Part shown: positions 39,272-50,234 of the stretch, one piece after another | Layout of the letters: every line of letters starts with the position of its first letter | Numbering within the stretch: the stretch's first letter is position 1 | Source: Rhodococcus sp. SMB37 | GTDB taxonomy: Bacteria > Actinomycetota > Actinomycetes > Mycobacteriales > Mycobacteriaceae | Direction of reading: 5' to 3' | Length of the DNA stretch: 64,000 bases | Assembly: GCF_004345605.1 (NCBI RefSeq) | Contig: NZ_SLVY01000005.1 | Span: 248,001 to 312,000 of the forward strand | The notes under the pieces: model-generated | Database searches by the model: none | Seen by the model: only the letters and a program-made list of their open reading frames with translations | What the model was told of the DNA's origin: nothing | Program-made: the position numbers and the translations under genes

Positions 39272-39697
39272 TCACGCCGCGTGGCTCAGCGATCGCATCG
39301 CACTCTCCAGGGAAAAGTGCTTGGGGATGCGCTGTTCGGGGTCGGCAGCACGCAGTAGTCGCTCGACCGGTCTTCCGCAGACGAGCGCCCAACGTGCACT
39401 GTTCTGGCGAGTCACCTCATCGAGCTCGTCGAACACCGTCAGACCCGGCGTCCCGAAGAACCCGACTTCGGACAGGTCGAGGATCACCCGGGGCGAAGAC
39501 CGAAGCTGCGTACAAGAATACTCGCTCAGCGCAGCCGCGTTACGGACGTCGATTTCTCCCCCGACGCCGACACGGACCAGGGCGGAGCTGATCTGCTGCG
39601 CGCAGAACTGAGCGCCCGCGGCCCAGCGGGTCGCGGCTCCGGGCGGACCAGCACGCATGGGCAGGGTCCGTACGGCAATGTTCTCGGTAGCTGTCAT
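39272..39697 (-). CDS. STAS-domain anti-sigma factor antagonist
   Basis: The 141-residue protein starts at ATG 39697 behind GGGAAG. The STAS domain spans about residues 35-140: VGVGGEIDVRNAAAL and VILDLSEVGFFGTPGLTVFDEL. The position usually filled by a phosphorylated Ser (DSSG) carries Thr in GTPG, a variant common in actinobacteria. It should bind the RsbW-like kinase encoded across the divergent promoter region and release the sigma factor. It is transcribed away from the sigma operon. Confidence 0.86.
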   Translation of the reverse strand: MTATENIAVRTLPMRAGPPGAATRWAAGAQFCAQQISSALVRVGVGGEIDVRNAAALSEYSCTQLRSSPRVILDLSEVGFFGTPGLTVFDELDEVTRQNSARWALVCGRPVERLLRAADPEQRIPKHFSLESAMRSLSHAA

Positions 39698-39907
39698 TGC
39701 ACTTCCCAACGTCTGAGAAATTTCAAAGGCGCTGGAGGCGCAGACGCAGCGGCACAGAATCGCCCGCCGGAATACCGCCCATCACGCGGCACCTTCGACT
39801 TCCAGGCTGTGTGCTCAACCGTCTTCAACACTAGTGCAGACCCGACGCACGCTCAACCGGATCGGAATTTCTCCATCCGCAGTAATGGCAGCGTGGAGGA
39901 TCCGGTG

Positions 39908-39932
39908 GGTTGAAACATCTCCGACTGGGTAG
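39908..39932 (+). promoter_or_regulatory. SigF/SigB-type autoregulatory promoter of the anti-sigma/sigma operon
   Basis: GGTTGA (39908-39913), 13 bases, GGGTAG (39927-39932). This resembles the GGTTTC-N13-15-GGGTAT consensus with one or two mismatches per element. It lies about 70 bp before the anti-sigma start at 40001, as expected for an autoregulated sigma operon. Confidence 0.6.
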
Positions 39933-40000
39933 TCTCCCCCTGGAAACAGGAAGCAGGACATTACAGCACCGCTACACGCAGTCACGGAGAACAGGCACCC

Positions 40001-40435
40001 ATGGCGAATTCCGCGTCGGTAGATTCGGCACACGAAGATGCACCCCCCACAGTCGAGCTGCGGGTAAGGGCCGATGCCGACCAGCTTTCGGTGCTGCGCG
40101 CGGTCGCGGCAGCGATCGCATTGCAACACGACTTCGATCTCGACACCGTCGAGGACATCAAACTCGCAGTCGACGAGGCAGCAACCCGGCTGATCGTGAA
40201 CTCCACAGATCTGTCGACTCTTCTGTGCAGCTTCCAGGTCTCCCCGTCGGGGGTGAAGATCGCCTTGTCGGCACCCACCCGCACGGATGCTCCCACCCGG
40301 CAGCCCCGCTCGTTCGGGTGGCATGTGCTCAATTCGCTCACCGATTCGGTGTCGGTGTCGTCCGGTATCGACGACCACGGTGACACTGTGAGCACCATCG
40401 ACCTGACGATCTCCGAACGTAGTGCCGCTCGGTGA
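40001..40435 (+). CDS. rsbW: Anti-sigma factor (RsbW-like GHKL ATPase)
   Basis: The 144-residue protein has a compact HATPase_c fold: TVEDIKLAVDEAATRLIVNS is the N-box (about 50-70) and FGWHVLNSLTDSVSVSS is the G-box-like region (about 105-122). It is predicted to bind and inhibit the sigma factor and to phosphorylate the STAS antagonist. Its stop overlaps the sigma-factor start by 4 bp (GTGA), so the pair is made in fixed ratio. Confidence 0.88.
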   Translation: MANSASVDSAHEDAPPTVELRVRADADQLSVLRAVAAAIALQHDFDLDTVEDIKLAVDEAATRLIVNSTDLSTLLCSFQVSPSGVKIALSAPTRTDAPTRQPRSFGWHVLNSLTDSVSVSSGIDDHGDTVSTIDLTISERSAAR

Positions 40436-41214
40436 AAGAGAACAACAGGAGGACGAACGACGATTACGCCGACGTCTTCGACGATCTGAAACGGATCGCT
40501 GTTCTCGACGTGAAGGATGCGGAACGCTCCCTGATCCGCGAGCATGTCGTCGAACGTTGTCTCCCTCTTGCAGAGCACATCGCGCGTCGCTTCGATGGGC
40601 GCGGTGAGGCGTTCGAAGACCTGGTCCAGGTCGCGCGTCTCGGGTTGGTCAACGCGGTCGACAGATTCGACCCGGAGCGCGGGGCCGACTTCGTATCGTT
40701 CGCGGTACCCACCATCATGGGTGAGGTGCGCCGGCACTTCCGGGACACCGCGTGGGCGGTGCGGGTTCCCCGTCGCATGAAGGAACTGCACCTGTCGTTG
40801 AGCCATGCGACCGCCGACCTGTCGCAGCGTCTCGGGCGCGCGCCCTCGGCGAGCGAGCTCGCGCAGGAGCTGGGTATCGACCAGGAAGAAGTGCTGCAGG
40901 GGTTGGTCGCGGGGAATGCCTACACCACTATTTCCGTGGATCGGTCGTCGCCACAGACCGACGACGGACTGACCCTGGCCGAGACACTCGGCGAGTACGA
41001 CGCGGCCCTCGACGAGGTAGAGAACAATGAAGCACTGCGTCCATTGCTCGAGGCGCTGCCGGAACGCGAACGTTCCATCGTCATGTTGCGGTTCTTCGGC
41101 AATATGACCCAGACGCAGATCGCCGAACGGGTCGGGGTGTCGCAGATGCACGTCTCGCGTCTGCTGGCAAAGACTCTCGCGCAGCTGCGGGATCAGCTCG
41201 GCGACAACTTCTGA
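40432..41214 (+). CDS. sigF: RNA polymerase sigma factor of the SigF/SigB family
   Basis: The 260-residue group 3 sigma factor has region 2 (PLAEHIARRFDGRGEAFEDLVQVARLGLVNAVDRFDPE, in pieces about 45-85, then FVSFAVPTIMGEVRRHFRDT), region 3 (SASELAQELGIDQEEV) and region 4 helix-turn-helix (MTQTQIAERVGVSQMHVSRLL, about 225-245). GTG 40432 overlaps the anti-sigma stop. By family it drives general-stress or stationary-phase genes from GTTT-N15-GGGTAT promoters, several of which occur in this window. Naming as sigF or sigB is interchangeable here. Confidence 0.92.
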   Translation: MKENNRRTNDDYADVFDDLKRIAVLDVKDAERSLIREHVVERCLPLAEHIARRFDGRGEAFEDLVQVARLGLVNAVDRFDPERGADFVSFAVPTIMGEVRRHFRDTAWAVRVPRRMKELHLSLSHATADLSQRLGRAPSASELAQELGIDQEEVLQGLVAGNAYTTISVDRSSPQTDDGLTLAETLGEYDAALDEVENNEALRPLLEALPERERSIVMLRFFGNMTQTQIAERVGVSQMHVSRLLAKTLAQLRDQLGDNF

Positions 41215-41240: not shown

Positions 41241-42302
41241 TCAGAAGGTCGCGGCGTCGATGACGAATCGGTACCTCACGTCGCTCGCGACCACGCGTTC
41301 GTAGGCCTCGTTGATGCGATCGGCGGAGATCAGCTCGATCTCTGCGGCAATTTCGTTCGCCGCGCAGAAGTCGAGCATCTCCTGGGTCGACGCGATACCG
41401 CCGACATTCGATCCCGCTATCGCCCGGTCGTTGTTGCCGAGGGAGAACGCTCGCAGGGACAGCGGATTCTCGGGCAACCCCAGCTCGACGAGGACACCAT
41501 GCAACGACAGCAGCGACAGGTACCGGTCCAGGTCGAGGTTGACCGACACGGTGTTGAGGATCAGGTCGAACTTGCCGCGAAGTTCCCTGAAGATCTCCTG
41601 ATCGGTGGTCGCGCGGTAATCGACGGCGCCGAAGCGCAGGCCGTCGTCCTTCTTCGCCAAGGAATGGCTGAGCACGGTCACCTCCGCGCCGAGTGCGGCG
41701 GCGATCTTGACACCGACATGCCCGAGCCCACCCATTCCGATGATCGCGACCCGGGTTCCGGGGCCGGCCTTCCAACGCTTCAACGGTGAGTACAAGGTGA
41801 TGCCGGCGCACAGCAAGGGCGTCGCCGCGGCAGGATCGAGCCCGTCGGGAATCCTCAGCACGAAGTGTTCGGTGACGACGATATGCGTCGAATAACCGCC
41901 CTGGGTGACCTGGCCGTCACTGCCGACGGAGTTATACGTCGCGGTGACCCTGTTGACGCAGTGTTGTTCGAATCCGGCACCACACGGATCGCACTCGCCG
42001 CACGAATCGACGAAGCATCCCACGCCGACCCGGTCGCCGACGACGTGCTTCGTGACGTCGGTGCCGATGGCGGCGACACGTCCGACGATCTCGTGACCGG
42101 GCACGACCGGGTACTTCGTGCCGCCCCACTCGTTGCGGGCCACGTGGATGTCCGAGTGACAGATGCCCGCGAATTCGATCTCGATCAGGACGTCGCGCGG
42201 CCCCAACGGGCGGCGCTCGATCGTGGTCTTCGTCAGTGGGGCGTCTGCGGATGTGGCGGTGAAGGCAACAGCAGTGATGGTCGGAACAGGCGAGTCGCTC
42301 AT
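41241..42302 (-). CDS. NAD(P)-dependent alcohol dehydrogenase (YahK/AdhC-like)
   Basis: The 353-residue zinc-dependent medium-chain dehydrogenase has the catalytic zinc motif GICHSDIH and GHEIVG, structural zinc cysteines [15 protein letters not shown], and the cofactor motif [13 protein letters not shown]. It is of the cinnamyl-alcohol/aldehyde reductase type that reduces aldehydes with NADPH. ATG 42302 starts the conserved region. It is convergent with the sigma gene (27 bp between stops). Confidence 0.92.
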
Positions 42303-42362
42303 GCTCCTATACCTACTCGCTTGCGAAGCGCCGCGCACCCGGGGGCCTCACGGCCGGGGGCG

Positions 42363-44648
42363 TTACCGGTGTCGGTCCCCGGCTGCGGCCCGGCGACGGA
42401 CCCTGCGCGCCGCCGCGACGAGGTTGCGCAGCGACGGTTCGAGTTGCCAGTTCCTGCGAGACTTGAGGCCACCATCCGGATTCGCCCACAGTCGGTCGAG
42501 GTCCACTGATCGGGCTGCTTCGGTCAGCAACTCGTCGAGCTCGTCGATGTCGGGGATCCGCGCCGAGCGCGACTCGTAGACACCCGGCCCGACACCGTGG
42601 GTCAGGGCCTGATCCTTGATCGCCTCGAGCACCCAGCCGATCGACCTGGTCGCGACGATCGCGGTGACGTCGGCATCGAGCCGTTCGATCGCGTCGACCA
42701 CCGACTTCTGACCCGAGTACGTCAGGTGTGTGTGGATCTGGGTCTCGGGCGCTGCCCCACCGGTCGCGAGGCAGAACGCATCGACTGCCCAGTCGAGGTA
42801 CTCGGCGCGCCCGTCCTGCCGCAGCGGCAGCAGTTCACGGATCGCCGGTTCGTCGACCTGGATGATCGCGATCCCGGCCTTCTCCAGATCGGAGATCTCG
42901 TCTCGGATCGCGAGTGCCAGTTGGTCGGCCGTCTCGTGACGCGGTTGGTCCGCCCGCACGTAGGAACGCGCCAGCATCGTGACGGGTCCGGTGAGCATTC
43001 CCTTGACCGGTCTGTCTGTGAGCGACTGCGCGAACGCGGTCCACTCGACCGTCATCGGTTTCGGCCGCACGATGTCGCCGTACAGGATCGGGGGGCGTGT
43101 GCAGCGCGACCCGTAGGCTTGCACCCAGCCGAAATGGGTGGTGGCGAAGCCCTCCAGCAGTTCGGCGAAGTACTGCACCATGTCGTTGCGTTCGTGTTCG
43201 CCGTGCACGAGGACGTCGAGGCCGATGTCCTCCTGCAGCCGGATCGTCGACTCGATCTCGGCCTCGATGAGCGTGGCGTACTCCTCGTACGACAGTCGTC
43301 CCTGGTCGAGCTCGTACCGCGCCTTCCGCGCCTCGGCTGTCTGAGGGAACGAACCGAGGGTGGTCGCGGGAACGGGCGGCAGCTTCAGGCGCTTCTGCTG
43401 GGCGACGCGACGCTCCTCGTAGGGGGCGCGGACTCGATGCTCGGCAGTGAGCGCGTTGAGGCGGGCACGCACCGTGTGCTTCTGCTTGAAATGCACCGAG
43501 ACGGGCGGCCGGCGCCACTTCTCCTCGGCTCCGGTGGTGAGTGCCTTCGCGAGCGAGACGACCTCGCCGACCTTCTGCTTCGCGAACGCGAGCCGGTCTG
43601 CGACGTCACCGGGGATGTCGTATTCCATGAGGAGGTCGTACGGCACATGCAGCAACGTGGAGGACGTCGAGACGACGAGATCCGGCGCGATCGCAGCGAG
43701 CGACTGCAGATATTCGAGTGTCCGGCGCCGATCGACCTTCCACACGTTGCGGCCGTCGACGACGCCCGCGTAGATCCGCTTGCGCTTCAGGCCGGGGACA
43801 GCGGCGAGTTCGTCGGGAGTCATCCGTCCGTTGACGAAGTCCAGGCCGAGCGCTTCGATCTTCGACGCCGCCAGGATCGGCAGTGCTTCACCGAGATGGC
43901 CGTAAGGCCCGGTCACGAGGATGCGGGGCCGCAACGGTGCGTGCGAGAGCACCTCGTAGGCCCGCTTCAGCGCCGCGAGTTCGTCGGCGCTGCGGTCCTC
44001 GGTGAACGATGGTTCGTCGAGCTGCACACATGTGGCACCGCGCTTCGCGAGTTGCTCGAAGAGTCGCTCGTATTGTTCGAGCAGCGGATCGAGCAGGTCG
44101 AGCGTCGCGAATCCGTTCTGCGGGGAAGTCGGCGCAACCTTCGACAGCAGCAGCAGCGACACAGGACCGAGCACGACGGGCCTCAGTTCGACACCCTCGG
44201 CCATGGCCCGATCGAACTCGTCGAGCAACGCGGACGAGTTGAGTTCGAAGACGGTGCGCTCGTCGAGTTCGGGCTGACGGTAGTGGTAGTTGCTCCCGAA
44301 CCAGCGGACCAGTTCGAGGGGCGGGAGGTCTGCGCGGCCACGACACATCGTGAAGTAGAAGTCGAGTGGGTCGAGTTCGTCGACGAGTGGACGGAACCGC
44401 TCCGGGACCGCACCGAACAGCAGTGCATTGTCTAGCACGTGGTCGTAGAAGGAGAACGTGTTGCCGGGGACTTGCGTCAACCCGGTGGCAGACAGTTCAC
44501 GCCACATGTTCTCCTGCAGTTCGCGACCGACCGCGATGACATCGGCGCGTGTACCGTCGCCGTGCCAGTAGGAATCGAGAGCACGCTTGAGTTCACGACG
44601 GGGTCCGATGCGCGGGTAACCGAGAATGCTCGAGCCGTGGCCTGCCAT
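42363..44648 (-). CDS. metE: MetE-like protein lacking three of four zinc ligands
   Basis: The 761-residue protein aligns end to end with cobalamin-independent methionine synthase: GYPRIGPRRELKRALDSYW at the start, VHGEHERNDMVQYFAELLEG, GMLTGPVTML and IIQVDEPAIRE in the catalytic domain. The catalytic zinc in MetE is held by His641, Cys643, Glu665 and Cys726 (E. coli numbering). Here the same positions are His641 (IHTH), Thr643, Val665 and Gly726 (NPDGG instead of NPDCG). Zinc-dependent activation of homocysteine therefore looks lost, although the reading frame is intact and well conserved. It lies 71 bp after fadB2; a hairpin sits between. It may be a paralogue with another substrate. Confidence 0.88.
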   Translation of the reverse strand: MAGHGSSILGYPRIGPRRELKRALDSYWHGDGTRADVIAVGRELQENMWRELSATGLTQVPGNTFSFYDHVLDNALLFGAVPERFRPLVDELDPLDFYFTMCRGRADLPPLELVRWFGSNYHYRQPELDERTVFELNSSALLDEFDRAMAEGVELRPVVLGPVSLLLLSKVAPTSPQNGFATLDLLDPLLEQYERLFEQLAKRGATCVQLDEPSFTEDRSADELAALKRAYEVLSHAPLRPRILVTGPYGHLGEALPILAASKIEALGLDFVNGRMTPDELAAVPGLKRKRIYAGVVDGRNVWKVDRRRTLEYLQSLAAIAPDLVVSTSSTLLHVPYDLLMEYDIPGDVADRLAFAKQKVGEVVSLAKALTTGAEEKWRRPPVSVHFKQKHTVRARLNALTAEHRVRAPYEERRVAQQKRLKLPPVPATTLGSFPQTAEARKARYELDQGRLSYEEYATLIEAEIESTIRLQEDIGLDVLVHGEHERNDMVQYFAELLEGFATTHFGWVQAYGSRCTRPPILYGDIVRPKPMTVEWTAFAQSLTDRPVKGMLTGPVTMLARSYVRADQPRHETADQLALAIRDEISDLEKAGIAIIQVDEPAIRELLPLRQDGRAEYLDWAVDAFCLATGGAAPETQIHTHLTYSGQKSVVDAIERLDADVTAIVATRSIGWVLEAIKDQALTHGVGPGVYESRSARIPDIDELDELLTEAARSVDLDRLWANPDGGLKSRRNWQLEPSLRNLVAAARRVRRRAAAGDRHR

Positions 44649-44719: not shown

Positions 44720-45616
44720 CTAGCCGGCCTTCTTGGTCGCGCGACCGTTGTCGGCGTACTCGTAGAAGCCTGCCCCCGACTTCTTGCCGACGAGTCCGGC
44801 TTCGACCATACGGAGAAGCAGCGGAGGTGCCGAGTAGAGCGGCTCCTTGAACTCGTCGTACATGGAGTCCGCGATCGACTTGACGGTGTCGAGCCCGACG
44901 AGATCGGTCAGTTCGAGCGGACCCATCGGGTGGGCGCAGCCCAGCACCATCGTCTTGTCGACGTCCTCCTTGGTGGCGAAACCGGATTCGACCATCCGGA
45001 CTGCCGAGAGGAGGTAAGGCACGAGGAGGGCGTTCGCGATGAAACCTGCCCGGTCGGACGACCGGACGACCTGCTTGCCGAGGATGTCACTTGCGAAGGC
45101 CGCCGCGCGTTCCGACACCGCGCGGCTGGTTTTGAGAGTGGTCACGACCTCCACGAGAGGGAGAACCGGCACCGGGTTGAAGAAGTGCATGCCGATGACG
45201 CGTTCGGGTGCCGTGGTCGCGATACCGAGCTTCATGATCGGGATCGACGACGTGTTGGAGGCGAGAACGGCGTTGGGGTCGGTGACGACCTTGTCGAGCT
45301 CCGCGAAGATCTCGGCCTTGATCTTCTCATCCTCCACGACCGCTTCCACCACGAGCTGCCGATCTGCGAAGTCCTCGAGGTCGGAGGTGAAACGAAGCCG
45401 CCACGCAGCCTGTTCACGCTCACGTTCAGTGATCTTCCCGGTGCTCACGCCCCGGTCGAGGGACCGGAGGATCCGTGCGCGTCCGGCCGCGGCGAGTTCG
45501 CGGGTCTTCTCGAACACCAGCACATCGACATGAGCGCGTGCACTCACCTCGGCGATACCCGAGCCCATGATGCCGGCGCCGATCACACCGACGCGCTGAA
45601 TCTTGTCGCTGGTCAC
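44720..45616 (-). CDS. fadB2: 3-hydroxybutyryl-CoA dehydrogenase
   Basis: The 298-residue enzyme oxidises 3-hydroxybutyryl-CoA with NAD(P). It has the dinucleotide motif VGVIGAGIMGSGIAEVSA (about 8-25), the catalytic region SNTSSIPI and HFFNPVPVLPLVEVV, and a C-terminal 3HCDH dimerisation domain (GFIANALLVPYLLSAVRMV). GTG 45616 follows GAGGAG with 6-bp spacing; the frame is open upstream. The icl-fadB2 order equals M. tuberculosis Rv0467-Rv0468, tying fatty-acid and short-chain acyl-CoA use to the glyoxylate shunt. Confidence 0.93.
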   Translation of the reverse strand: MTSDKIQRVGVIGAGIMGSGIAEVSARAHVDVLVFEKTRELAAAGRARILRSLDRGVSTGKITEREREQAAWRLRFTSDLEDFADRQLVVEAVVEDEKIKAEIFAELDKVVTDPNAVLASNTSSIPIMKLGIATTAPERVIGMHFFNPVPVLPLVEVVTTLKTSRAVSERAAAFASDILGKQVVRSSDRAGFIANALLVPYLLSAVRMVESGFATKEDVDKTMVLGCAHPMGPLELTDLVGLDTVKSIADSMYDEFKEPLYSAPPLLLRMVEAGLVGKKSGAGFYEYADNGRATKKAG

Positions 45617-45712
45617 TCGAATCTCCTCAACTTGCCTGTGCTCGGTGACAACGGATGCAGGCGAGTACATGGGTAACTCACCGGGTACGCCCATCAGCCC
45701 CCGGATTCCGGA

Positions 45713-45788: not shown

Positions 45789-47078
45789 CTAGTGGAACTG
45801 GCCTTCCTCCGTGGAGCCCTTCAGGGCAGCCGTGGAGGTGTTCGGGTCGACCGTGGTGGCGATGCGGTCGAAGTAGCCTGCGCCGACCTCACGCTGGTGC
45901 TTGATCGCGGTGAAGCCACGCTCTTCTGCGGCCTTGAACTCGCGCTCCTGCAGATCGACGAAGGCGGTCATGCCCTCGCGGGCGTAGCCGTGCGCCAAGT
46001 CGAACATGCCGTAGTTGAGCGAGTGGAAGCCGGCGAGGGTGATGAACTGGAACTTGAAGCCCATCGCGCCGAGCTCCTTCTGGAACTTCGCGATGGTCGC
46101 GTCGTCCAGGTGAGCCTTCCAGTTGAAGGACGGCGAGCAGTTGTAGGCCAGCAGCTGGTCGGGGAACTCGCTGCGCACAGCCTCGGAGAACTTCTTGGCG
46201 ACCTCGAGATCCGGCACGCCGGTCTCCATCCAGATGAGGTCGGAGTACGGGGCGTACGCCTTGGCGCGAGCGATGCAGGGCTCGATGCCGTTCTTGACGC
46301 CGTAGAAGCCCTCGGCCGTGCGGGTGCCGTCGAGGAACTCGCGGTCGCGCTCGTCGACGTCGGAGGTCAGCAGGGTTGCAGCCTCAGCGTCGGTGCGGGC
46401 GATGACGACCGTCGGGACGTCGGCAACGTCGGCTGCGAGGCGAGCCGAGGTCAGGGTGCGGATGTGCTGCTGGGTCGGAATGAGCACCTTGCCACCGAGG
46501 TGACCGCACTTCTTCTCCGACGCGAGCTGATCCTCCCAGTGCGAACCGGCAACGCCGGCCGCGATCATGGCCTTCTGCAGCTCGTAGACGTTCAGGGCGC
46601 CGCCGAAGCCGGCCTCACCGTCGGCGACGATCGGAGCGAGCCAGTTGTCGACGGAGGTATCGCCCTCGACCTTGGCGATCTCGTCGGCGCGGAGCAGCGC
46701 GTTGTTGATGCGGCGAACGACCTGCGGGACCGAGTTCGCCGGGTACAGCGACTGGTCCGGGTAGGTGTGGCCGGACAGGTTGGCGTCGCCGGCGACCTGC
46801 CAGCCGGACAGGTAGATGGCCTTCAGACCGGCGCGAACCTGCTGAACGGCCTGGTTGCCGGTGAGGGCGCCCAGCGAGTTGATGTAGTCCTCGTTGTTCA
46901 CGAGGTCCCACAGGATCTCAGAACCACGACGGGCGAGGGTGGCTTCCTCGACGACGGAGCCCTGCAGCTTGACGACCTGCTCGGCCGTGTAGTTGCGGGT
47001 GATTCCCTTCCAGCGAGGATTGGTGTCCCAGTCCTTCTGGATTTCTTCAGCGGTCCTCGGGGTGCCGGTGGTCGACAT
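45789..47078 (-). CDS. aceA: Isocitrate lyase
   Basis: The 429-residue enzyme splits isocitrate into glyoxylate and succinate, the first step of the glyoxylate shunt. The catalytic signature KKCGHLGG (about residue 187-194) is intact, as are [18 protein letters not shown] and [13 protein letters not shown] 47078 follows GGAG; the frame begins one codon earlier with TTG. RamB-like boxes in the upstream region (47205-47257) point to control by the RamB regulator encoded nearby. Confidence 0.96.
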
Positions 47079-47204
47079 CAAAGCTCCACTCTCTAGATCT
47101 ACTCCGCTCGGCGTCAGCAGTACGTCTGTACTACTTCACATCCTTTGCGGCCCATTCGGATGTACAAGACGACAATGACACAACTGAAAACCCCTCGCTA
47201 CCTG

Positions 47205-47257: not shown

Positions 47258-47573
47258 TCAATGGTGAGGCCAACGACCACGGCACCTGAGGCGAAAGTTA
47301 CCCACCGGTAGCACTGACCTCGACTTTTACGGCCCGCGTGTTGCCGGTCGCGATGTAGCACCTCGACGCCGTGACCGGCCCGGAAAGCCCTCTGGCAAGT
47401 TCCCCACTGTGACCGTCTTCACACGACTTCGCGACCTACACACGCCATGTAAATGACCTTGAAAGCGCCCATCCCGGTCGTACGATGTGCCGCACGACCG
47501 GATCGGGGCCGGTCGCGCAGAGTGCTGCGCGCCTCCTGCTTCGGTTTGCCATCCGCACAACCGAGGAGCAGTC

Positions 47574-48767
47574 ATCCTTTCACCTACGTCGCGTCCGATC
47601 GTCGAGATGACCCTGCCTGTGGTCGGGGCACACATCGGCGTGATCTCCGAGGTGTTCTACGAGAAACTGTTCACCGCAGTCCCCTCGCTACGCACCAACC
47701 TGTTCAACAGGACGAATCAAGCGAGCCGCACCCAGCAACAGGCGCTCGCAAGTTCGGTTGCTTCCTTCGCAACGCTGCTCGTCACCCAGGAGCCCGGCGA
47801 CATCGACTCGATCATGTCCCGGATCGCCGCCAAGCACGCGTCCCTGGGCGTGACATCCGACCTCTACGAGGTTGTACGCACCCACCTGTTCGCCGCGATC
47901 GTGGAGGTCCTCGGCGACGCCGTCACTCCCCAGGTCGCAGCCGCGTGGAACGAGGTGTACACCCTGATGGCCAACTCCCTGGCCGAACAGGAGTCGCAGC
48001 TGTACCGGGATGTGGGTGTCGCCGAAGGCGAGGTGTGGAGGCAGGCCCTGGTCGCTGCGCGCGAGTACGACGGCGCCCACTCCGCAACCCTGTTCCTGCG
48101 TCCTCTCGACGGCAAACCGTTCCGCACCCACCGCCCGGGCCAGTACACCTCGGTCCGCATCCGCTTCGCCGACGAGACAGAACAGATCCGCCAGTACACC
48201 GTCACCCACGGACGCCAATCGGGTGAGTGGGCACTGTCCGTCAAACGGGTGCCGGACGGACTCGTGTCACCGATCCTCGTCGACAAGGTCGCGGAGGGTG
48301 ATCAGCTCACCGTGTCGCAGCCGTTCGGCGGCGTCGTGGTCGACAACGACGACTCTCCATTGCTCCTGATCTCCGCCGGAATCGGCGTCACCAACACACT
48401 GGCGACCCTCCAATATCTGGCCACGTACAACCCCGGGCGTGAGGTGACGATCGTCCATGTGGAGAGGTCCGCGTACGAACACGTGAGGCGCATCGAGTTC
48501 AGCACCGTGGTGAAGGCCCTACCCAACTCCGAGCTGTTCCTGCGCTACAAGGATTTCGACGGCGAGCACGAGGACGGCCGAAACCCACTGACGCGCGTCC
48601 CGTTACCGTCGGGTGCCCAGACGTATGTGTGCGGACCGGTCGAGTTCATGCGGTCCATCCGTCGCGAACTGATCGGCGCCGGACTACCGCCGGCATCGAT
48701 CCATTTCGAAGCGTTCGCCCCGGGCTCGTGGCTCGGGCTCGAGAGCGAACATGCACCCGTCCCTTAG
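47574..48767 (+). CDS. hmp: Flavohemoglobin (nitric oxide dioxygenase)
   Basis: The 397-residue protein has an N-terminal globin (about 1-140, LPVVGAHIGVISEVFYEKLF; proximal His in AAKHASLGVTSD) and a C-terminal ferredoxin-reductase part with the FAD motif IRQYTVTHG, the NAD motif SAGIGVTNTLATL and YVCGPVEFM. It oxidises NO to nitrate. The start is odd: family homology and ribosome-site spacing (GGAG, 5 bases) point to the codon at 47574, which is ATC, not ATG or GTG. Other in-frame starts are GTG 47487 (no ribosome site) and ATG 47607. Confidence 0.88.
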   Translation: MLSPTSRPIVEMTLPVVGAHIGVISEVFYEKLFTAVPSLRTNLFNRTNQASRTQQQALASSVASFATLLVTQEPGDIDSIMSRIAAKHASLGVTSDLYEVVRTHLFAAIVEVLGDAVTPQVAAAWNEVYTLMANSLAEQESQLYRDVGVAEGEVWRQALVAAREYDGAHSATLFLRPLDGKPFRTHRPGQYTSVRIRFADETEQIRQYTVTHGRQSGEWALSVKRVPDGLVSPILVDKVAEGDQLTVSQPFGGVVVDNDDSPLLLISAGIGVTNTLATLQYLATYNPGREVTIVHVERSAYEHVRRIEFSTVVKALPNSELFLRYKDFDGEHEDGRNPLTRVPLPSGAQTYVCGPVEFMRSIRRELIGAGLPPASIHFEAFAPGSWLGLESEHAPVP

Positions 48768-48793: not shown

Positions 48794-48821
48794 GCTGGTG
48801 GAAGCGCCTTACGCTGGGCGA

Positions 48822-50234
48822 ATGGCCAAGACCTACGTCGGCGCCCGCCTGCGCCAGCTACGGACCGAGCGTGGACTCAGCCAAGCCGCACTCGCGAAGA
48901 CACTCGAGATTTCCGCGAGTTATCTCAATCAGATCGAACACGACGTCCGGCCGCTCACCGTGCCGGTGCTGCTGCGGATCAGCGAAGTGTTCGGCGTCGA
49001 CACGACGTTCTTCTCGTCGCAGGACGACACCCGCCTGATCGCCGAGATGCGTGAGGTCGCGCTCGACCAGGAGATGGGTATCGAGGCCGACGCACAGGAG
49101 ATCGCCGAAATGGTCGCGGCGCATCCCGGTCTGGCGCGCGCGATGGTCAACATGCACCGCCGATTCCGCAACACCACAGCACAGCTCGCCGCCGCGACGG
49201 AAGACCGCTACAGCGACGGCAGCGGAAGCGGCGCGATCACGATGCCGCACGAAGAGGTCCGCGACTACTTCTATCAGCGGCAGAACTACCTCCACGAACT
49301 CGACACCGCGGCCGAGGAGCTCGCCAACCGGATCCGATTCCACCGAGGTGACGTGGGTGGCGAGATCGCCAAACGCATGGCCGCGGTCCACGACGTACAG
49401 GTCGTCAAACGCATCGACCTCGGCGAGAACGTCCTGCACCGCTACGACCCCGAGACCCGGGTGCTCGAGATCGCACCGCAGCTGTCCGGAGGACAGCAGG
49501 TGTTCAAGCTCTCCACCGAACTCGCCTACCTCGAGTGCGGTGATCTCATCGACAAGCTCGTCGACGACGGGGGCTTCACCAGCGACTCGTCGCGCACACT
49601 CGCGCGTCTCGGGCTCGCGAACTATTTCGCAGCAGCACTGATTCTCCCCTATTCGCAGTTCCACGAGATCGCCGAGGACTTCCGCTACGACATCGAGCGT
49701 CTCTCGGCGTTCTACGGTCAGAGCTACGAAACAGTCGCGCATCGCCTTTCGACGCTGCAACGTCCGAAGCTGCGCGGTGTGCCGTTCTCGTTCGTGCGCG
49801 TCGACCGTGCGGGCAACATGTCCAAGCGGCAATCCGCCACCGGATTCCACTTCTCGACGAGCGGTGGCACCTGCCCGCTGTGGAACGTGTACGAGACATT
49901 CGCATACCCGGGCAAGATCATGACCCAGATCGCGCAGATGCCTGACGGTCGCCGTTATCTGTGGGTCGCGCGGACGGTCGAACGCCGCGCCGCCCGCTTC
50001 GGGCAACCGTCGAAGACCTTCGCGATCGGCCTCGGCTGCGACCTGCGCCATGCGCACCGGCTCGTCTACGCGGAAGGCCTCGATCTCGACGAGTCGAACC
50101 CCGGCACTCCCATCGGCTCCGGCTGCCGGGTGTGCGAGCGGATGAACTGCCCGCAGCGTGCATTCCCTCCCCTAGGCAAGGACATCGACATCAACGAACA
50201 CCGCAGCTCTGTCTCGCCTTACCTCGTCCGCTGA
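48822..50234 (+). CDS. ramB: RamB-type transcriptional regulator of acetate/glyoxylate metabolism
   Basis: The 470-residue protein has an N-terminal XRE helix-turn-helix (about 5-60: GLSQAALAKTLEISASYLNQIEHDVRPL), a central ImmA/IrrE-type peptidase-like domain (about 150-300) and the C-terminal ScfR/DUF2083 domain with the cysteine motif GCRVCERMNCPQRAFPP. This is the RamB layout (M. tuberculosis Rv0465c). RamB represses icl and acetate genes on preferred carbon sources. ATG 48822 lies just after two TTGCAAA boxes. Its position near icl is conserved. Confidence 0.94.
   Translation: MAKTYVGARLRQLRTERGLSQAALAKTLEISASYLNQIEHDVRPLTVPVLLRISEVFGVDTTFFSSQDDTRLIAEMREVALDQEMGIEADAQEIAEMVAAHPGLARAMVNMHRRFRNTTAQLAAATEDRYSDGSGSGAITMPHEEVRDYFYQRQNYLHELDTAAEELANRIRFHRGDVGGEIAKRMAAVHDVQVVKRIDLGENVLHRYDPETRVLEIAPQLSGGQQVFKLSTELAYLECGDLIDKLVDDGGFTSDSSRTLARLGLANYFAAALILPYSQFHEIAEDFRYDIERLSAFYGQSYETVAHRLSTLQRPKLRGVPFSFVRVDRAGNMSKRQSATGFHFSTSGGTCPLWNVYETFAYPGKIMTQIAQMPDGRRYLWVARTVERRAARFGQPSKTFAIGLGCDLRHAHRLVYAEGLDLDESNPGTPIGSGCRVCERMNCPQRAFPPLGKDIDINEHRSSVSPYLVR

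Follow-up and report, generated by a model that had tools for sequence, protein, structure and literature searches.

A MetE relative without its zinc site, encoded behind icl and fadB2 in Rhodococcus and related bacteria

MetE, the cobalamin-independent methionine synthase, has an architecture of about 750 residues in two (beta/alpha)8 barrels, and its zinc ligands in E. coli are H641, C643, E665 and C726 (PMC7857596). In the enzyme of T. maritima, Trp539 stacks on the pterin while Lys104 and Glu583 bind the pterin edge, the glutamate tail is held by Arg15, Lys18, Arg493 and Arg496, homocysteine is held by Asp577, Glu462 and Ser411, and His672, His111 and Asp467 are candidate acids (PMC539065). 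Here, we describe a metE-like gene, metE', at 42363..44648 on the minus strand of a 64,000-nucleotide stretch of the genome of Rhodococcus sp. SMB37 (contig NZ_SLVY01000005.1, positions 248,001 to 312,000), hereafter called the window. Compared with MetE of E. coli, T. maritima (1xdj, 1xpg), C. albicans (4l61) and A. thaliana (1u1h), the proteins of this type lack the zinc site, carry arginine in place of Trp561 and His694 and mostly in place of Lys115, and are encoded behind icl-fadB2 and not behind a B12 riboswitch. We assign a probability of roughly 0.58 to the reading that metE' encodes a repurposed relative of MetE, which has lost three zinc ligands, has had its active site rebuilt and is tied to the glyoxylate-shunt operon icl-fadB2-metE'.

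Among other described systems, the core methionine synthases MesA, MesB, MesC and MesD are related to the C-terminal barrel of MetE, with homocysteine residues that are largely common; they are single barrels with a zinc site, whereas the metE' protein has two barrels and has lost that site (PMC7857596). MesB-like proteins of Chloroflexales likewise lack the zinc ligands, with FSHG, YCDQ or YREQ replacing HCEC or HCDC, but these are kin of the single-barrel synthase, of another lineage and with other replacements than metE' (PMC7857596). Uroporphyrinogen decarboxylase has one barrel and a different substrate, and is 10–14% identical to the metE' protein in a structure alignment; no model of this enzyme was among the Pfam matches of the metE' protein at E <= 0.001. 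In the literature searched, outside of which lay subscription papers and preprints, no paper on a zinc-free full-length MetE was recognised.

Loss of three zinc ligands in a full-length MetE relative

The open reading frame of metE' starts with ATG, has no internal stop and encodes 761 amino acids. The product matches both Meth_synt_1 and Meth_synt_2 of Pfam, MetE chains of the PDB align with it over almost their entire length, and its predicted structure (predicted local distance difference test score 86.4, predicted template modelling score 0.87) consists of two (beta/alpha)8 barrels. The initial annotation, which described a full-length homologue of MetE with an intact frame, is borne out in this respect, as is its statement that the numbering is in step with E. 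coli MetE: the numbering agrees exactly, and residues 641, 643, 665 and 726 are H, T, V and G, so that His641 alone is retained. The codons of these residues, like all other codons given below, lie on the minus strand. Histidine is found at 641 (42726..42728) in 67/67 of the sequences that share the change; the position of Thr643 (42720..42722, Cys in MetE) holds T in 33, G in 18, A in 6, P in 5, N in 2, S in 2 and E in 1; that of Val665 (42654..42656, Glu in MetE) holds V in 66 and I in 1; and that of Gly726 (42471..42473, Cys in MetE) holds G in 66 and F in 1. We use the term zinc-free for sequences in which three of the four ligands are absent, the ligands having been read in fetched loci only.

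Relatives were gathered from named genomes (at least 80 loci) and from further genomes of the family and the order. After collapsing identical rows, 67 distinct zinc-free sequences (from 72 rows) and 90 distinct canonical ones were retained; removed earlier were five duplicates from genomes already represented (L143-L146, L168), a fragment (L033) and a partial sequence (L008). The same three ligands were gone in all 67 zinc-free orthologues, which come from Rhodococcus, Prescottella, Nocardia, Dietzia and kin, while all four were present, as HCEC, in 90/90 canonical homologues, and no intermediate occurred among the sequences read. The two groups are equally distinct in overall similarity: zinc-free sequences are 60–100% identical to the window protein and canonical MetE sequences 44–56% over the full length, with none in between among those read.

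This distribution speaks to the simplest alternative, a decaying gene or a sequencing error. Identical losses in 67 distinct sequences, and a mean ratio of nonsynonymous to synonymous substitution rates (dN/dS) of 0.117, already refute it, and we give it practically no weight. In the same genomes the corresponding mean for canonical metE was 0.166 (28 pairs from 8 genomes, these being the ones of the window's genus with both genes whole among those sampled), and the share of amino-acid-changing differences was lower in the zinc-free gene for 27/28 pairs. The zinc-free gene is thus kept by purifying selection, stronger than that acting on the canonical gene of these eight genomes. The initial annotation had argued for a changed function in preference to ordinary decay, and a single clade, the low dN/dS and a conserved gene order all agree with it.

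The zinc-free sequences form one side of a branch with a Shimodaira-Hasegawa-like approximate likelihood ratio test (SH-aLRT) support of 100 in a tree of 17 zinc-free and 30 canonical rows, and the clade stays, again with SH-aLRT 100, after removal of the active-site columns and the changed ones (18 and 33 rows). The tree sets this clade among the canonical MetE of Pseudonocardiaceae, where branch order is weakly supported. Duplication of the genome's own MetE was rejected as a source, since the window protein is about 55% identical to Pseudonocardiaceae MetE and 48–49% to its own genome's MetE, in agreement with the tree. A single origin in the shared ancestry of Rhodococcus, Nocardia, Dietzia and their kin, followed by repurposing, would account for this pattern. 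By score, the zinc-free gene occurs in about 179/401 sampled genomes of the family, a figure reached by subtracting 156 genomes hand-listed as not zinc-free by score from the 335 with a match, the two best candidates per genome having been scored. All 17 other sampled genomes of the window's genus have it, one draft genome in two pieces. In a search of 397 genomes across the order (E <= 1e-240), 34 genomes matched; 19 belong to the same family, the window's genome included, and each of these is zinc-free. The remaining 15 lie outside the family, and the 11 that were read all had HCEC, so that no convergent zinc-free MetE was seen there in a search that spanned the order and would reveal only sequences close to the query.

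A replacement zinc site was sought among residues particular to the clade. In the C-terminal barrel no cysteine or histidine gained by the clade is fixed; the new cysteine that is fixed, Cys207, belongs to the N-terminal barrel. A new histidine, His485, adjoins Glu484 in 57/72 zinc-free rows, the other 15 having V, I, A or P. Replacement ligands were accordingly rejected, His485 being common but not fixed, and we infer that the metE' protein holds no zinc.

The folate and homocysteine sites

The initial annotation stated that the folate-side motifs are kept. This is true of the residues for the glutamate tail, which by alignment are 18, 21, 515 and 518 in the window protein: R18, R515 and R518 are retained in 67/67 zinc-free sequences and K21 in 66/67. 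It is not true of the pterin seat. The stacking tryptophan (Trp539 in T. maritima) corresponds to Arg561 (42966..42968), where R is found in 62 sequences, F in 4, L in 1 and Trp in none; the lysine that contacts pterin O4 (Lys104) corresponds to Arg115 (44304..44306), with R in 52, K in 12, A in 2 and S in 1. Only the third residue of the seat is retained by the window protein, namely Glu605 (42834..42836; Glu583 in T. maritima), which in MetE binds pterin N3 and the 2-amino group, and for which the counts are E 61, T 5 and D 1. The candidate acids have fared unequally. His672 of T. maritima corresponds to position 694, which is R in 66 zinc-free sequences and H in 1, and codons 692-696 of metE' (42561..42575) accordingly read ESRSA for the DIHSP of MetE, whose histidine is a candidate proton donor. 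The other two positions are 122 (H 53, Y 11, F 2, L 1) and 489 (D in 67/67). In addition, Arg124 and Gln125 (44274..44279) stand fixed in 67/67 sequences where MetE has L or I and V, respectively.

The homocysteine site, on the other hand, shows no such change at its amino and carboxyl contacts. The residues at 433, 484 and 599, which align with Ser411, Glu462 and Asp577 of T. maritima, are identical in 67/67 zinc-free sequences: Ser433 (43350..43352), the contact of the homocysteine carboxylate, and Glu484 (43197..43199) and Asp599 (42852..42854), the contacts of the amino group.

Losses in the zinc-free clade are concentrated at and around these sites. Canonical MetE has 203 positions that are at least 97% invariant, and 164 of them are retained in at least 90% of the zinc-free set while 17 are lost. 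The losses comprise 6/19 of the active-site positions defined in the literature and 11/184 elsewhere (Fisher p 0.002, with positions treated as independent), or 14/75 of the positions no more than three residues from an active-site position and 3/128 of the others, the last count having been made on 72 zinc-free and 93 canonical rows before identical rows were collapsed. Since the losses are concentrated at active-site positions and the frame is retained, the active site has been rebuilt. As the positions of Trp561, His694 and Lys115 are also altered, the change extends beyond zinc, and the protein may have ceased to accept methyl-folate. These same alterations weaken the earlier proposal of another methyl acceptor or donor, which took the folate side to be kept.

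A protein that still depends on methyl-folate, or transfers a methyl group back to folate, together with a zinc-independent partner (for example, from a sulfonium or N-methyl amino acid to tetrahydrofolate) would fit the intact N-terminal barrel, the retention of the tail and homocysteine amino-acid residues in 66–67/67 sequences and that of Glu605 in 61/67. This reading resembles the proposal in the initial annotation. We consider it improbable, because the pterin-stacking tryptophan is gone in 67/67, the pterin O4 lysine is changed in 55/67 and the candidate acid histidine is gone in 66/67, and because in one sub-lineage the loss of Glu605 accompanies that of Arg561, as though these residues formed a pair. 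The combinations at 561 and 605 are R+E in 61 sequences, R+D in 1, F+T in 4 and L+T in 1; that is, Thr605 is found exactly in the sequences with Phe or Leu at 561, as if Arg561 had taken the place of the pterin against Glu605. The sub-lineage in question (L148, L151, L169-L171) has F or L at 561, T605, L644 and Y663, and to judge from these residues represents a second remodelling of the same active site.

A pseudoenzyme, which would bind or sense a compound such as an amino acid or folate, or act as a scaffold, without catalysing a reaction, is another reading that we hold to be unlikely. It would explain the loss of three zinc ligands and of the candidate acid, and position 643 varies among T, G, A, P, N, S and E as might a site without chemistry. 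Against it, there is little or no variation in the replacements at 561, 665, 692-694, 726, 124 and 125, and the amino-acid pocket is intact.

Methionine synthesis and the icl-fadB2 locus

The initial annotation had raised the question of a second MetE with intact ligands, or of MetH, and the genome encodes both. Its canonical MetE, with HCEC, is located at C21:38464-40704, and a cobalamin riboswitch at C21:38081-38286 lies within about 180 bp of it. The same 92-kb contig carries 6 of the genome's 10 cobalamin riboswitch matches, the one just before canonical metE among them. A MesD-like single-barrel synthase is also encoded, beside MesX (PF08908), at L003:1123-3338, so that MetH, MetE and MesD/MesX occur together.

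MetH was present in 38/38 sampled genomes whose single MetE-type match is the zinc-free form, and the zinc-free protein is not needed for methionine. A MetH match was found in 26/38 genomes with canonical MetE only, the 12 others all belonging to one genus (g3). MetH was called by its activation domain, PF02965, and one of the 26 matches (G021) is short and weak, at 30 bits; the zinc-free-only genomes were taken from the family score table, while the canonical-only genomes were hand-picked from a larger number. Because the 12 genomes without MetH are all of one genus, the contrast is not independent of kinship, and MetH in 38/38 would also be expected if these bacteria simply all rely on it.

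These observations bear on whether the zinc-free protein is still a methionine synthase, with zinc held otherwise or with none. The full-length identity of 44–56% to canonical MetE speaks for it, as does the new His485 beside the homocysteine site. So does the NCBIfam equivalog NF003556, which the metE' protein passes with 948.2 bits (cut-off 541); it does not reach the curated MetE equivalog TIGR01371, with 877.9 bits against a cut-off of 929.95. Beside that shortfall stand the loss of three of four ligands in 67/67 sequences with no fixed new cysteine or histidine at the C-terminal site, and MetH in every zinc-free-only genome, whereas 12/38 canonical-only ones, these 12 all of genus g3, have none. 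We regard continued methionine synthesis as highly improbable and, on the residues at the zinc site and at the positions of the pterin tryptophan and the candidate acid, the zinc-free protein is very probably not a methionine synthase. The acceptance by one model and rejection by the other is a source of wrong annotation as methionine synthase, and pathway tools that take metE' for MetE would be wrong.

The gene for a FadB2-like 3-hydroxybutyryl-CoA dehydrogenase (44720..45694, minus strand) precedes metE' by 71 bp, and icl, encoding isocitrate lyase (45789..47081, minus strand), is probably the first gene of the run. The observation in the initial annotation that this short gap leaves no B12-riboswitch leader is corroborated: no family reached its Rfam gathering score, and hence no cobalamin riboswitch was found, within the whole window. 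Its absence at metE' is expected, since the canonical metE on another contig has one. The order icl-fadB2-metE' recurs in 36/37 loci examined (20/21, 8/8 and 8/8 in three sets), where the second set read 12 loci of which 4 repeated genomes of the first, and icl was only partly visible in short loci. In the exception, L052, no fadB2 or icl match was found and the metE' match begins about 1 kb from the contig end.

At 24 bp downstream of metE' is a gene for a zinc-type alcohol/aldehyde dehydrogenase (41241..42338, minus strand; best NCBIfam match Ahr, below cut-off), and an aldehyde-reductase-like dehydrogenase adjoins metE' in most rhodococcal loci examined. Nothing resembling a terminator turned up on the minus strand from icl to the dehydrogenase in a simple scan, which makes a single transcript of these genes likely. 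It is probable from this arrangement that metE' is expressed together with the glyoxylate shunt. A RamB-like (ScfR) regulator is encoded at 48798..50234 on the plus strand; the RamB of M. tuberculosis is a repressor of icl1 during growth on glucose (PMC3420887).

The locus also exists without metE'. Of 19 genomes lacking the zinc-free gene that were searched with fadB2, 16 matched at E <= 1e-80, two of them (G044, G085) with only 54–55% identity, and in 14/14 fetched loci of these 16 icl-fadB2 stands without metE'. No single gene takes its place in the 14 loci, and a gene swap was rejected. Since icl-fadB2 remains without it, metE' is an accessory of the locus.

Several observations weigh against a repurposed enzyme tied to the glyoxylate shunt. 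To the extent that gene order tells, metE' is dispensable to the locus, and the tie to the shunt would rest on neighbourhood; no constant partner beyond icl-fadB2, and the dehydrogenase in rhodococci, was seen in 19 loci with reading frames picked by length, and the zinc-free gene is absent from many relatives, with a patchy distribution in the genera g6, g25, g27 and g34. The coupling of 561 and 605 amounts to one or two events within one lineage. The retained tail residues R18, K21, R515 and R518, and Glu605 in most sequences, would be easier to explain with folate still bound, and with His485 common some other metal site is a slight possibility.

A proposed function and the induced MetE of R. 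qingshengii

If metE' does encode a repurposed enzyme, zinc would have been lost and methionine would no longer be made. An alpha-amino acid would be bound, its side chain directed into the vacated zinc pocket, which is now small and hydrophobic. A second partner, an anion, would lie between the two barrels in their cleft, contacted by the new arginines 124, 561 and 694; where the pterin used to sit, Arg561 probably forms a pair with Glu605. The enzyme would work in cells that run the glyoxylate shunt on C2 compounds, ethanol or fatty acids.

The proteome of R. qingshengii IGTS8 may provide a view of this protein. Its 'MetE' (IGTS8_peg5907), with 2 cysteines and 7 methionines, was 190- to 273-fold more abundant on dibenzothiophene than on sulfate, which the authors read as sulfur starvation and methionine synthesis, with the sulfur source as the sole variable (PMC8557817). 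The medium contained cyanocobalamin; a 100 mM ethanol stock supplied the dibenzothiophene, while the main text gives no ethanol for the sulfate cultures (PMC8557817); by arithmetic from that stock, about 0.5% ethanol was carried into the dibenzothiophene cultures. A metE under riboswitch control should be kept low by cyanocobalamin, and induction of an icl operon would be the expected response to ethanol. Genome G145 shares its canonical metE, at 100% identity, with R. qingshengii IEGM 1359. Its canonical protein contains 4 cysteines and 8 methionines and its zinc-free one 2 and 8, counting the start methionine and with chosen starts, so that cysteines separate the two proteins and methionines do not. 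Within genus g39 the canonical protein has 4 or 5 cysteines (12/12 read) and the zinc-free protein 2 in 7/8 and 1 in 1/8. The cysteine count published for the induced 'MetE' of IGTS8 therefore suggests that it is the zinc-free paralogue, and the zinc-free protein may underlie at least one conclusion drawn from a published proteome. metE was also induced by selenite in R. qingshengii PM1 (PMC13414329), where either of the two MetE-like proteins may be meant.

A more specific proposal, which we advance tentatively and consider rather less likely than its negation, is that metE' encodes a new enzyme on the MetE double barrel that works without zinc or pterin, forms or breaks a bond between an alpha-amino acid and an anionic carbon compound present when the glyoxylate shunt runs, is part of the icl operon of rhodococci and nocardiae, and is the 'MetE' of IGTS8, maybe switched on by ethanol and not by sulfur starvation. 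If a new reaction is involved, it would show how a double barrel that depended on zinc and folate can acquire a different chemistry, and related sequences from either side of the transition are available for comparison.

Further genes surround the run in the window. A flavohaemoglobin-like gene, with globin, FAD and NAD domains, occupies 47487-48767 between icl and ramB, and among 21 loci, several of which end too early, it was seen at L042 only. Beyond the dehydrogenase, positions 39272-41214 encode a STAS protein, a histidine-kinase-like ATPase (anti-sigma-like) and a sigma factor, which recur at that place in most rhodococcal loci examined.

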